Origin: a virus
IMG/VR virus record: IMGVR_UViG_3300025870_000089
Span: 1 to 21,535 of that record
Length of the DNA stretch: 21,535 nt
Direction: 5' to 3' (one strand)
Below, piece after piece: positions 9,223 to 17,267 of this stretch. How positions within the stretch are numbered: position 1 is the stretch's first letter; every line of letters begins with the position of its first letter. A program made the translations under genes and the position numbers. The notes beneath the pieces were generated by a model that was given only the letters and a program-made list of their open reading frames with translations, searched no databases and was not told the origin of the DNA.

Positions 9223-9299
9223 CGGCCCATAGCACAATCGGATAGTGCAACAGCCTTCTAAGCTGTAGGTTGTAGGTTCGAGTCCTACTGGGTCGGCCA
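9223..9299 (+). tRNA. tRNA-Arg (anticodon UCU)
   Basis: The cloverleaf folds by eye: acceptor CGGCCCA (9223-9229) with TGGGTCG (one G-T pair), D stem GCAC/GTGC around AATCGGATA, anticodon stem ACAGC/GCTGT with the 7-base loop CTTCTAA, T stem GTAGG/CCTAC with loop TTCGAGT, discriminator G9296 and an encoded CCA (9297-9299). The anticodon TCT is at 9257-9259 and reads AGA (and AGG by wobble). It lies in the 105-bp gap between the metallopeptidase and the GroES-like gene and is presumably cut from their transcript. Phage tRNAs for AGA commonly supplement hosts that use this codon rarely. Confidence 0.93.
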
Positions 9300-9319: not shown

Positions 9320-9592
9320 ATGGCTATTCAAATGATAGGCGACAACGTGCTAATTGCAGCTGTCCCAAAAGAAACAAAAGAAACAATGTCAGACGGTGGT
9401 ATCATCTTGACAAGTGAACTCAAAAAGACAGCATCAGAGCCTGGTGTCGTCATTGCTGTTGGCCCTTCGGCTGGTATGATTCAGCAAGGTGACACAGTAT
9501 ATCTGTCTTGGGATAAATCAATGCCGGTGAAGATCAATGGCCAAGAAGCAGTGATCGTCTCTGCAGAACACGTCAAGGCCATTGTGTCGTGA
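9320..9592 (+). CDS. GroES/gp31-like cochaperonin
   Basis: A 90-residue Cpn10-fold protein that would cap the host GroEL chamber during folding of phage proteins such as the capsid subunit. The N-terminal IGDNVLIAAVPKETKET matches the GroES start, followed by the mobile loop region SDGGIILTSELKKTASEPGVVIAVGPS (about 24-50), whose IIL tripeptide contacts GroEL, and then GDTVYLSWDKSMPVKINGQEAVIVSAEHVKAIV, the typical C-terminal half. It is nearer in length to bacterial GroES (97) than to T4 gp31 (111), and is better described as a phage GroES than a gp31 orthologue. GAGG precedes the ATG. Its stop overlaps the GTG start of the next gene. Confidence 0.88.
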   Translation: MAIQMIGDNVLIAAVPKETKETMSDGGIILTSELKKTASEPGVVIAVGPSAGMIQQGDTVYLSWDKSMPVKINGQEAVIVSAEHVKAIVS

Positions 9593-15008: not shown

Positions 15009-15016
15009 TATTTATA
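15009..15016 (-). promoter_or_regulatory. Late promoter box for the lipase cluster
   Basis: A perfect TATAAATA on the minus strand that shares 2 bp with the plus-strand box at 15015-15022. The predicted start near 15003 gives the lipase mRNA a leader of about 25 nt. Confidence 0.8.
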
Positions 15017-15022
15017 TAAATA
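15015..15022 (+). promoter_or_regulatory. Late promoter box for the heme oxygenase operon
   Basis: A perfect TATAAATA on the plus strand. Initiation about 6 bp past the box, near 15028, would make the whole GC-rich leader upstream of the heme oxygenase gene part of its mRNA. Confidence 0.8.
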
Positions 15023-15026
15023 AATT

Positions 15027-15092
15027 CACTCGAGGCAGTCGCAGCCTCGCTACAGGGTGTGGCCCCAGCCCTGCTACCGAACCGGGGCACTA
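15027..15092 (+). ncRNA. Structured 5' leader, possible riboswitch or pseudoknot
   Basis: GC-rich in an otherwise AT-rich region. Hairpin 1 is CGAGGC (15031-15036)/GCCTCG (15044-15049) around a 7-base loop. Hairpin 2 is CAGGGT (15053-15058)/GCCCTG (15068-15073), with one T-G pair. The loop of hairpin 2 contains GCCCC (15062-15066), which can pair with GGGGC (15084-15088), making an H-type pseudoknot. The element ends about 10 bases before the ribosome-binding site GAGAGGG of the heme oxygenase gene. Riboswitches of the SAM-II/SAM-V or preQ1 types have this kind of fold, but I cannot match it to a family by eye. Confidence 0.55.
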
Positions 15093-15110
15093 ATAATAAT
15101 GAGAGGGAAT

Positions 15111-15659
15111 ATGGCTACCAGTCTAAAACAATTAACCCAGAAACACCACGATATGGCCGAACAATCAAGGTTCGCCGGTATGTTGATTAGTGGAGATATT
15201 ACTCCTGTCGCATATCAATATTATTTAAAATCACAATATGAAATTTACCGGGCACTTGAGGAACGTGTACATCTAGCACAAGAACTCACCGGTGTCTTTA
15301 GGGCAGACAAGATCCTGGCCGATTTGTGTGAATTAGAAGAGTCCTACAACTTAACATGGATTTCTGAAAACCTAAGATCTGTTGATGACTACATCGATCA
15401 TATTTTAAGCCTAGAAGATAACGACGATCTAATGGCCCACCTTTATGTAAGACATTTCGGCGATATGCACGGTGGTCAGATTATTAAAAAGAGAGTACCA
15501 GGCTCGGGTTCAATGTATGAATTTGAGAATAGACGAGAATTGATTTCTGGTATTCGAGAATTGTTGTACGATGATATGGTCGATGAGGCAATTATTTGCT
15601 TTGAATACGCAACAAAATTATTTGGGGAATTAGATACAATTTTCTCAACAACTGATTAA
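15111..15659 (+). CDS. Heme oxygenase
   Basis: A 182-residue heme oxygenase that would open heme to biliverdin, iron and CO using electrons from ferredoxin or another reductant. The proximal heme ligand is His13 in KHHDMAE, matching the H-x-x-A-E pattern of the family. The distal helix is HFGDMHGGQIIKK, with the flexible GD--GG (117-122). YYLKSQYEIYRALEE (37-51) is also typical. The start at 15111 is preferred because GAGAGGG lies just upstream; an ATG at 15099 would include that site. It is shorter than cyanobacterial HO1 (about 240) and nearer small bacterial HemO proteins. The bilin reductase gene follows after 14 bp, so biliverdin is the shared intermediate. Confidence 0.93.
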   Translation: MATSLKQLTQKHHDMAEQSRFAGMLISGDITPVAYQYYLKSQYEIYRALEERVHLAQELTGVFRADKILADLCELEESYNLTWISENLRSVDDYIDHILSLEDNDDLMAHLYVRHFGDMHGGQIIKKRVPGSGSMYEFENRRELISGIRELLYDDMVDEAIICFEYATKLFGELDTIFSTTD

Positions 15660-15673
15660 CCACAGGATACATT

Positions 15674-16366
15674 ATGGATACACCATTACTGAATAGACTG
15701 CGAGAGCTGTCGGCCGATATTATTAAACTATTCGACAATCATTTAGAATCATTTGATAACGAAAAGCATGTCAATGAGTTTGAAGGTTGGACAGATCTCT
15801 TTTGGCGATCTGATTCCATTCGTAAGGCACACCTAAAAATAATTGAGCCATTGCCAGGCAAGCCAAAACTCTGGTTGATACACATTAATGTCTTCCCAGA
15901 TGCCTCATTACATTACCCTATCTTGGGGCTCGATGTTGTTGCAGGTCCGAATAAAATCAGTGGTTCTTTTTTTGATTTCTCTCCCGTGTCTCACGATACG
16001 CACCCCATTGTTACCACATTTGGTCTTGCCACCAGAGATTTGGTATGGAAGAAAGAACGAGAGCTACCCGATTGGGCCAAAGAGATATTTTCACCTCATA
16101 TGGTTGCAGCAGGAAATATTCGTGAGGGTGAAGAAACAGAGCAGTTTTGTGAGCATGCATTAAAATTGATTTCTTACTATCTTTCAGAAGTCCAACATGG
16201 GGCTCTTTGGAAGAATGGTGTTGATCATTTGGATTGGCATAATAATTACTGTGTTAATCAGAAAAAGAATAAGCAGCTCTGGAACTCACTTAGGGCAATG
16301 AACCTAGACGAAGGTAAGATAGAGCAATATGTCAATGATGTATTGTTTGAGGAGATCGATCCTTAA
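15674..16366 (+). CDS. Ferredoxin-dependent bilin reductase, PcyA/PcyX-like
   Basis: A 230-residue reductase that would take biliverdin from the adjacent heme oxygenase and reduce it in ferredoxin-dependent steps. The core LGLDVVAGPNKISGSFFDFSP aligns with [21 protein letters not shown] of Synechocystis PcyA; RELPDWAKEIFS with RELPPWGEIFS; and NYCVNQKKNK with HYCQQQQKND. By this alignment the catalytic pair H88/D105 of PcyA is H70/D87 here and N219 is N199. Glu76 of PcyA, needed for D-ring exovinyl reduction, is replaced by K55 (RKAHLK against RKMHLE). That would fit phycoerythrobilin production as reported for the oceanic phage enzyme PcyX, rather than phycocyanobilin. CAGGAT precedes the ATG. 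No ferredoxin gene is seen in the window, so electrons would come from the host. Confidence 0.9.
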   Translation: MDTPLLNRLRELSADIIKLFDNHLESFDNEKHVNEFEGWTDLFWRSDSIRKAHLKIIEPLPGKPKLWLIHINVFPDASLHYPILGLDVVAGPNKISGSFFDFSPVSHDTHPIVTTFGLATRDLVWKKERELPDWAKEIFSPHMVAAGNIREGEETEQFCEHALKLISYYLSEVQHGALWKNGVDHLDWHNNYCVNQKKNKQLWNSLRAMNLDEGKIEQYVNDVLFEEIDP

Positions 16367-16715: not shown

Positions 16716-16882
16716 TGAAAAAGCCCACGGATTCCAAAAAAGAAGATCGTATTGCTATCATAGCATTGTCTGTGATACTTATACTGTCGATCGCTGGTGG
16801 CTTGATGCCCCTTATAAGCCCCGCAAGTTATCAGATCCACCCGGAGTTGATGATGTACTCGATCCCGGTACCGATGTTGTAA
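16712..16882 (+). CDS. Tiny membrane protein (56 aa)
   Basis: ATG at 16712 (two in-frame ATGs in a row) to TAA at 16882. The N-terminus MMKKPTDSKKEDR is basic and polar, followed by a membrane segment IAIIALSVILILSIAGGLMPLI and an outward tail SPASYQIHPELMMYSIPVP. The layout is that of a single-pass protein with its N-terminus in the cytoplasm, or of a short signal anchor. It is translationally coupled by ATGA to the preceding gene. The promoter-terminator pair starting at 16890 follows directly, so this gene ends its transcription unit. Confidence 0.5.
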   Translation: MMKKPTDSKKEDRIAIIALSVILILSIAGGLMPLISPASYQIHPELMMYSIPVPML

Positions 16883-16889
16883 ATAACCC

Positions 16890-16918
16890 TTGACATAGTG
16901 GTAGCACTTTGATATAAT
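16890..16918 (+). promoter_or_regulatory. Consensus sigma70 promoter overlapping a terminator
   Basis: TTGACA (16890-16895), a 17-bp spacer ending in TGA, and TATAAT (16913-16918). The predicted start is near 16925, inside the 5' arm of the terminator stem at 16920-16929. Confidence 0.8.
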
Positions 16919-16919
16919 G

Positions 16920-16957
16920 ACGGTCTGAATGTGAGAATGTTCAGGCCGTTTTTTTTA
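16920..16957 (+). terminator. Rho-independent terminator before gene 33
   Basis: A 10-bp stem ACGGTCTGAA (16920-16929)/TTCAGGCCGT (16940-16949), with one T-G pair and a 10-base loop, followed by eight T residues. It would stop transcription coming from the bilin reductase and small membrane genes. Confidence 0.88.
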
Positions 16958-16970
16958 TTTGCGAAATTGG

Positions 16971-16999
16971 TTGACATTGTATGCATATCCTGATATAAT
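16971..16999 (+). promoter_or_regulatory. Consensus sigma70 promoter of the gp33-gp59-gp32 operon
   Basis: TTGACA (16971-16976), a 17-bp spacer ending in TGA, and TATAAT (16994-16999). A start near 17006 gives a leader of about 22 nt containing AAGGAGG (17016-17022) before the gene 33 ATG. Confidence 0.88.
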
Positions 17000-17027
17000 G
17001 TACTCTTCAAAAATCAAGGAGGTATTA

Positions 17028-17267
17028 ATGTCGGTTGTGAAAATGACCCCCGAAAAGATCCACCATGACATCTCAAACATGATTGCGCGCGGTGTTCCAT
17101 ACATCGATGCTCTCGTCCATTACGCCGAGAAAAACAATCTTGAGATCGAATCTATCGCTGACATCGTTAAGAAGTCTTCGATATTGAAAGAAAAAGTAAG
17201 AACTGAAGCTGTTGATTTGAGAATGGTAAAACAAGATGAGCCTAACATCACCGACCTATGTGAATGA
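17028..17267 (+). CDS. 33: gp33-like late-transcription coactivator
   Basis: A 79-residue protein that would link the gp55-bearing RNA polymerase to the sliding clamp at late promoters. The order 33-59-32 is that of T4, and the sequence shows the family features: GVPYIDALVHYAEKNNLEIESIADIVKKSSILKEKVRTEA (T4 has GMSYLEATTAFLEENSI...IIEKIQSEA) and a short acidic/hydrophobic tail ITDLCE, in the position of the clamp-binding C-terminus of T4 gp33 (TLDFLL). AAGGAGG is placed 5 bases before the ATG. T4 gp33 is 112 residues, so this one is a shorter form lacking the T4 N-terminal extension. It overlaps gene 59 by 32 bases. Confidence 0.88.
   Translation: MSVVKMTPEKIHHDISNMIARGVPYIDALVHYAEKNNLEIESIADIVKKSSILKEKVRTEAVDLRMVKQDEPNITDLCE

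Follow-up and report, generated by a model that had tools for sequence, protein, structure and literature searches.

The 5' leader of the late ho-pcyX mRNA of a marine T4-like phage is, to judge from sequence and covariance comparisons, very probably what remains of the 3' end of a phage's ssrA (tmRNA) gene. The explanation we propose, to which we give as a whole a probability of about 0.55, is that this fragment was exapted and serves as the structured 5' end of the late mRNA.

The window, i.e. the whole stretch of 21,535 nucleotides analysed (IMG/VR record IMGVR_UViG_3300025870_000089), carries the genes of a marine T4-like phage fragment: a gp59-type helicase loader, gp32, recA/uvsX, a tail tube and topoisomerase subunits. 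The leader precedes ho, which encodes a heme oxygenase (15111 to 15659, plus strand; PF01126, E 1.9e-18), and pcyX (15674 to 16366, plus strand; PF05996, E 1e-16), which encodes a ferredoxin-dependent bilin reductase nearest to PcyX, the best solved relative being the viral PcyX 5owg (E 9.7e-36). As read from the sequence, the T4-type late promoter of the two genes, TATAAATA (15015 to 15022, plus strand), is contained in the perfect 14-nt palindrome TATTTATATAAATA (15009 to 15022), which holds a pair of T4-type late promoters that overlap and point in opposite directions, towards the divergent lipase gene and towards ho-pcyX. In the sister genome G001, the same motif precedes the tail-sheath and capsid-type late genes, whose leaders are short and AU-rich; there the other late leaders measure 18 to 71 nt, are mostly AU-rich and lack a comparable GC-rich element, against 86 to 88 nt and up to 72% GC for the ho leader. 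Elsewhere in the window, two near-identical sigma70-like promoters (TTGACA...GATATAATG) stand at 16880 to 17030 on either side of a hairpin that, with its run of T, resembles a terminator, before a small gene upstream of gp59, and a GroES-like co-chaperonin gene (phrog_3188, 9320 to 9592) adjoins a tRNA-Arg(TCT) gene (9223 to 9299).

Within the leader (15028 to 15110), the fold occupies positions 15031 to 15090, downstream of the late promoter, and combines a hairpin with an H-type pseudoknot. The P1 hairpin, CGAGGC(AGUCGCA)GCCUCG, extends from 15031 to 15049 on the plus strand (strands 15031-15036 and 15044-15049, loop AGUCGCA) and begins 2 to 4 nt from the transcription start predicted from the promoter motif. 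P2, which is stem 1 of the pseudoknot, pairs CAGGGU with GCCCUG on the plus strand (15053 to 15073; strands 15053-15058 and 15068-15073). The core of stem 2 is formed by the pairing of GCCCC (15062-15066) with GGGGC (15084-15088), and can be extended to GUG[G]CCCC (15059-15066) and GGGGCAC (15084-15090), with one bulged G; this stem spans 15059 to 15090 on the plus strand. Loop 3, CUACCGAACC, occupies 15074 to 15083 on the same strand, and an AU-rich spacer bearing the Shine-Dalgarno sequence GAGAGGG (15101-15107) fills the interval from 15091 to 15110. The GC content of the element is 71%, that of the genome 41%. The preliminary description, which had announced two hairpins, the GCCCC/GGGGC loop pairing and, between a late promoter and a bilin operon, a structured leader with a pseudoknot, was right on all these points. 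It was also right in ending the element upstream of the Shine-Dalgarno sequence, not in placing that end just before it: the element stops about 10 nt upstream of 15101-15107 and 20 nt from the AUG at 15111, and neither contains nor touches the Shine-Dalgarno sequence.

The nested minimum free energy fold of the leader is ordinary (z +0.29), so that a plain test of this kind would miss the element. A pseudoknot-aware search does better: among dinucleotide shuffles, it found equally good structures in 4/300 for version A of the leader, 3/300 for version B, 1/300 for version C and 35/300 for version D (the four versions are defined below), the pseudoknot of D being non-significant when taken alone. 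Only two among 6000 random windows of G001 scored as well as A to C.

Homologous leaders were gathered from IMG/VR by scans with ho, pcyX and gp59, and all of them come from metagenome contigs. Four distinct versions were found, each directly before ho (and pcyX): A in the window and L001, B in L003, L004, L005 and L011, C in L006 to L009, and D in L002. In the contigs searched, the element is present as one copy per phage and is confined to one small clade. The preliminary description had called for covariation in homologous leaders, and the pairing is indeed maintained by compensatory changes: in P1, a G-C pair is replaced by A-U in B and a C-G pair by A-U in C. P2 (CAGGGU/GCCCUG) is present in A and B and partly in D, and in C it is replaced by an unrelated 8-bp stem, UUGGUCGC/GCGGCCAA, in the same role. 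In the case of D, the pseudoknot helix is GGUCUU/AAGGCC instead of GCCCC/GGGGC and most loop bases are changed, whereas the loops of A to C are identical; MAFFT misaligned this version, and the pair counts therefore understate its pseudoknot. The distance from stem 2 of the pseudoknot to the AUG is constant, 22 to 23 nt, in all four versions, which are a small sample for these inferences. Among relatives with 50 to 61% identity in ho, the gene is mostly preceded by a late promoter and an AU-rich leader that is short and lacks the element, or else it sits within an operon. Apart from ho leaders, pattern scans of IMG/VR yielded nothing but coding sequences matched by chance, a BLAST search of phages and plasmids with the element gave chance matches only, and a strict exact-pattern scan of 84,980 species genomes gave three matches, judged by inspection to be coding or chance.

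The origin of the element is supported by two reciprocal covariance models. In 41 contigs of related phages (1.4 Mb), the model built from the four leaders only had as its top two matches the 3' ends of permuted tmRNAs, in G024 (E 6.5e-6, tag ANDNFASEDYAIAA) and in G017 (E 0.0063, tag ANDNVAPSGYALAA); the fourth was the tmRNA 3' end of G014 (E 0.13), and all three matches are in homologous register. The same model found no match in the part of the loci listed by a late-promoter pattern scan of IMG/VR that was searched with it. The reverse model was built solely from the 3' ends of nine phage tmRNAs. Its best match in the window is the leader (18.1 bits, E 9e-4, the runner-up scoring 6.0), and the leaders of L004 and L002 also come first in their contigs, though weakly (12.6 and 8.5 bits); in L007 the model did not pick out the leader of version C. 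When the leaders were aligned to the tmRNA ends, none of 1000 shuffles was as good for A, B or D and 84/1000 were for C, so that the homology of C rests on its likeness to A and B. A sequence-only HMM profile, used as a control, detects A (3/2000 shuffles) and misses B to D.

Both models align P1 with the hairpin formed by the last tmRNA tag codons (GCx xUC GCA GCx stop), to which it is homologous, and stem 2 with its loop has its homologue in PK2, the final pseudoknot of permuted tmRNA, down to the bulged G and the loop GC(A/U)AC(A/C)GAA. The anatomy that leaders and tmRNA ends have in common is specific: besides this stem and loop, it comprises the UCGCAGC hairpin and ACAGGG; the equivalent stem in the tmRNA of L345 is UG[G]CCACU/AGUGGCA, against GUG[G]CCCC/GGGGCAC in the leader. 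The coding pieces of two-piece tmRNAs typically have two pseudoknots flanking the tag (PMC3985003); the counterpart of the leader is therefore the end of the tag together with PK2. Only the last codons of the tag frame survive, inside P1, and the stop codon is replaced by UCG, UUG or CCU. No tmRNA resume site was found behind the late promoter in the leader sequences, and neither ARAGORN nor RF04321/RF01849 found a tRNA-like domain (acceptor stem, T arm) in the window or in the sister contigs searched.

Complete, circularly permuted tmRNA genes do exist in related ho/pcyX phages, where they are confirmed by ARAGORN and Rfam (94 to 121 bits). A tmRNA scores above the Rfam cut-off in 14 of 46 records, Pelagibacter phage Mosig among them, and none was found in the window's clade (G000 to G005). 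In L471 and L345, moreover, ssrA is the immediate upstream neighbour of ho. In the case of L471, the tmRNA (1569 to 1944, tag ANDDVYDMEYALAA) runs straight into ho, a few bases separating its last stem from the ribosome-binding site, and no promoter was seen between the two genes; in the case of L345, the late promoter of ho is located after the tmRNA. In many marine phages (L500, L502, L504, L506 and L509), permuted tmRNA genes end about 15 to 45 nt before the start codon of the next gene, so that the tmRNA and the mRNA are probably one transcript.

The history that we propose would begin with the loss, in the window's clade, of the body of ssrA, i.e. the tRNA-like domain with the greater part of the tag frame. 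The late promoter would then have come to abut the surviving 3' end, made of the tag-end hairpin and the final pseudoknot, and transcription from this promoter would give the ho-pcyX mRNA that remnant as its 5' end. That the element has been retained for a function is, in our opinion, quite likely. The mechanism is more tentative, and we put the chances of a passive structured 5' end at somewhat less than even: a stable P1 at the very start and the pseudoknot behind it would slow the 5'-dependent decay of the late mRNA, and the structure would keep the ribosome-binding site clear of mRNA folding and thus open in the constant stretch of 22 to 23 nt. The constancy of this spacing and the contrast with the short, AU-rich late leaders of G001 speak for a structural role. 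With the textbook value for the size of the ribosome footprint, the pseudoknot would stop just outside it. The leader has no terminator, hidden Shine-Dalgarno sequence or known aptamer; a structured 5' end is the simplest account.

The identity of the loops in A to C nevertheless exceeds the needs of a purely structural role, which hints at a binding partner. The leader could thus be a translational operator, on which a protein of the phage or the host (a gp32-like single-stranded DNA-binding protein, ribosomal protein S1 or another tmRNA-binding factor) would tune the translation of ho-pcyX, much as gp32 of T4 acts on the mRNA that encodes it. Its layout is that of the T4 gene 32 operator, a 5' pseudoknot and then an AU-rich ribosome-binding region (PMC3014915, PMC535899), and the loops of A to C are unchanged despite saturated synonymous divergence. 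However, the element precedes ho, while the gene 32 of the window has only a short AU-rich leader without it; the AU-rich part measures about 20 nt compared with more than 40 nt in T4; and most loop bases are altered in D. We consider such an operator unlikely on balance. The loop conservation in A to C leaves more room for a binding protein than for a ligand. Could the exapted leader still recruit S1 or some other translation factor that binds tmRNA, which would tie late bilin synthesis to the state of the translation machinery? This addition to the structured 5' end seems rather unlikely to us.

The element might also be a decaying ssrA fragment without present function. No tag stop codon or reading frame is left, most of the loop identity has disappeared in D, and relatives with a 57%-identical ho manage without the element. 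The comparison with ho argues otherwise. Among the four-fold degenerate positions of ho, 26/43 (60%) differ between A and B and 26/36 (72%) between A and C, yet the element is near intact between A and B: its roughly 60 nt show a single 2-nt indel and three substitutions, of which two compensate each other. The adjoining spacer is not conserved, and C shares conserved blocks with A and B. A recent exchange could account for the likeness of A and B, yet not for the blocks shared with C. The computation shows that the element is under strong purifying selection, and with the compensatory pairing and the constant spacing to the AUG, it makes a neutral leftover quite unlikely. In the case of L002 (G002, version D), the four-fold differences from the window reach 0.35 to 0.40 in ho and pcyX and only 0.11 in the lipase and gp59 genes that flank them; its ho-pcyX segment thus appears recombinant, the bilin cassette and its leader having apparently been swapped as one unit.

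The preliminary description had proposed a metabolite riboswitch, and such a switch, built on the tmRNA-derived fold and responding to heme, biliverdin, a bilin or another ligand, would suit a compact pseudoknot with conserved loops ahead of an operon that uses heme and produces a bilin; a glutamine riboswitch has moreover been reported in the related marine phages Melnitz and Mosig (PMC9004378). The proposal finds no support in our data. At gathering and relaxed thresholds, the Rfam covariance models detected no riboswitch in any version, even at E values as high as 10, and a weak beta_tmRNA match in B (E 0.008) is accounted for by the tmRNA homology. Ensemble folding found no conserved alternative fold hiding the Shine-Dalgarno sequence across A to D, this sequence being free and outside the pseudoknot, and no terminator is read after the leader. 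The distribution is restricted to a single small clade, the homology is to tmRNA ends, and a limited literature search found no paper with the phrase 'heme riboswitch'. A riboswitch is accordingly very unlikely. On the minus strand of L002 (2880 to 3001), towards the lipase gene, the nqrA-II motif is matched weakly, at 24 bits where the cut-off is 55 bits (E 0.03), and probably by chance.

Finally, genomic islands insert at tmRNA genes (PMC11915505), and ssrA as a prophage site as well as ssrA fragments are mentioned in PMC9004378, but the idea that the fragment is an attP for a host tmRNA gene was rejected as highly improbable: no tyrosine integrase is present in G000 to G005, whose gene set is that of a lytic T4-like phage, the element lies exactly between the late promoter and the ribosome-binding site of ho, and the strict pattern met only chance matches in the species genomes.

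The exapted leader can be compared with several known systems. In marine phages, the structured RNAs manA, wcaG, PhotoRC-II and the glutamine riboswitch stand ahead of metabolic genes (PMC2864571, PMC9004378), as the leader does; unlike them, it has no match to such an RNA in Rfam, is tmRNA-derived and has no known ligand. With the T4 gene 32 operator (layout according to PMC535899), it shares a 5' pseudoknot and an AU-rich ribosome-binding region in the mRNA of a T4-like phage, and by this analogy gp32 would be a candidate for binding; it differs in its location before ho, its extra hairpin, its shorter AU-rich stretch and its unrelated origin. With the permuted tmRNA itself (RF01849 alpha_tmRNA, RF04321 tmRNA_permuted), it has in common the tag-end hairpin GC..UCGCAGC, the last pseudoknot with its bulged-G stem, the GCAACAGAA-type loop and the position immediately upstream of ho that the tmRNA occupies in L345 and L471. 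In contrast to tmRNA, it has no tRNA-like domain, acceptor piece, resume site, tag frame or stop codon, and it lies behind a late promoter as part of an mRNA. A limited literature search found no paper on a tmRNA fragment retained as a 5' leader. The trimming of an adjacent noncoding RNA gene, with its folded end kept, would be a route to a new mRNA leader; it explains how a compact pseudoknot can resemble a riboswitch without being one, and makes the leader a test bed for what the pseudoknots of tmRNA do alone.
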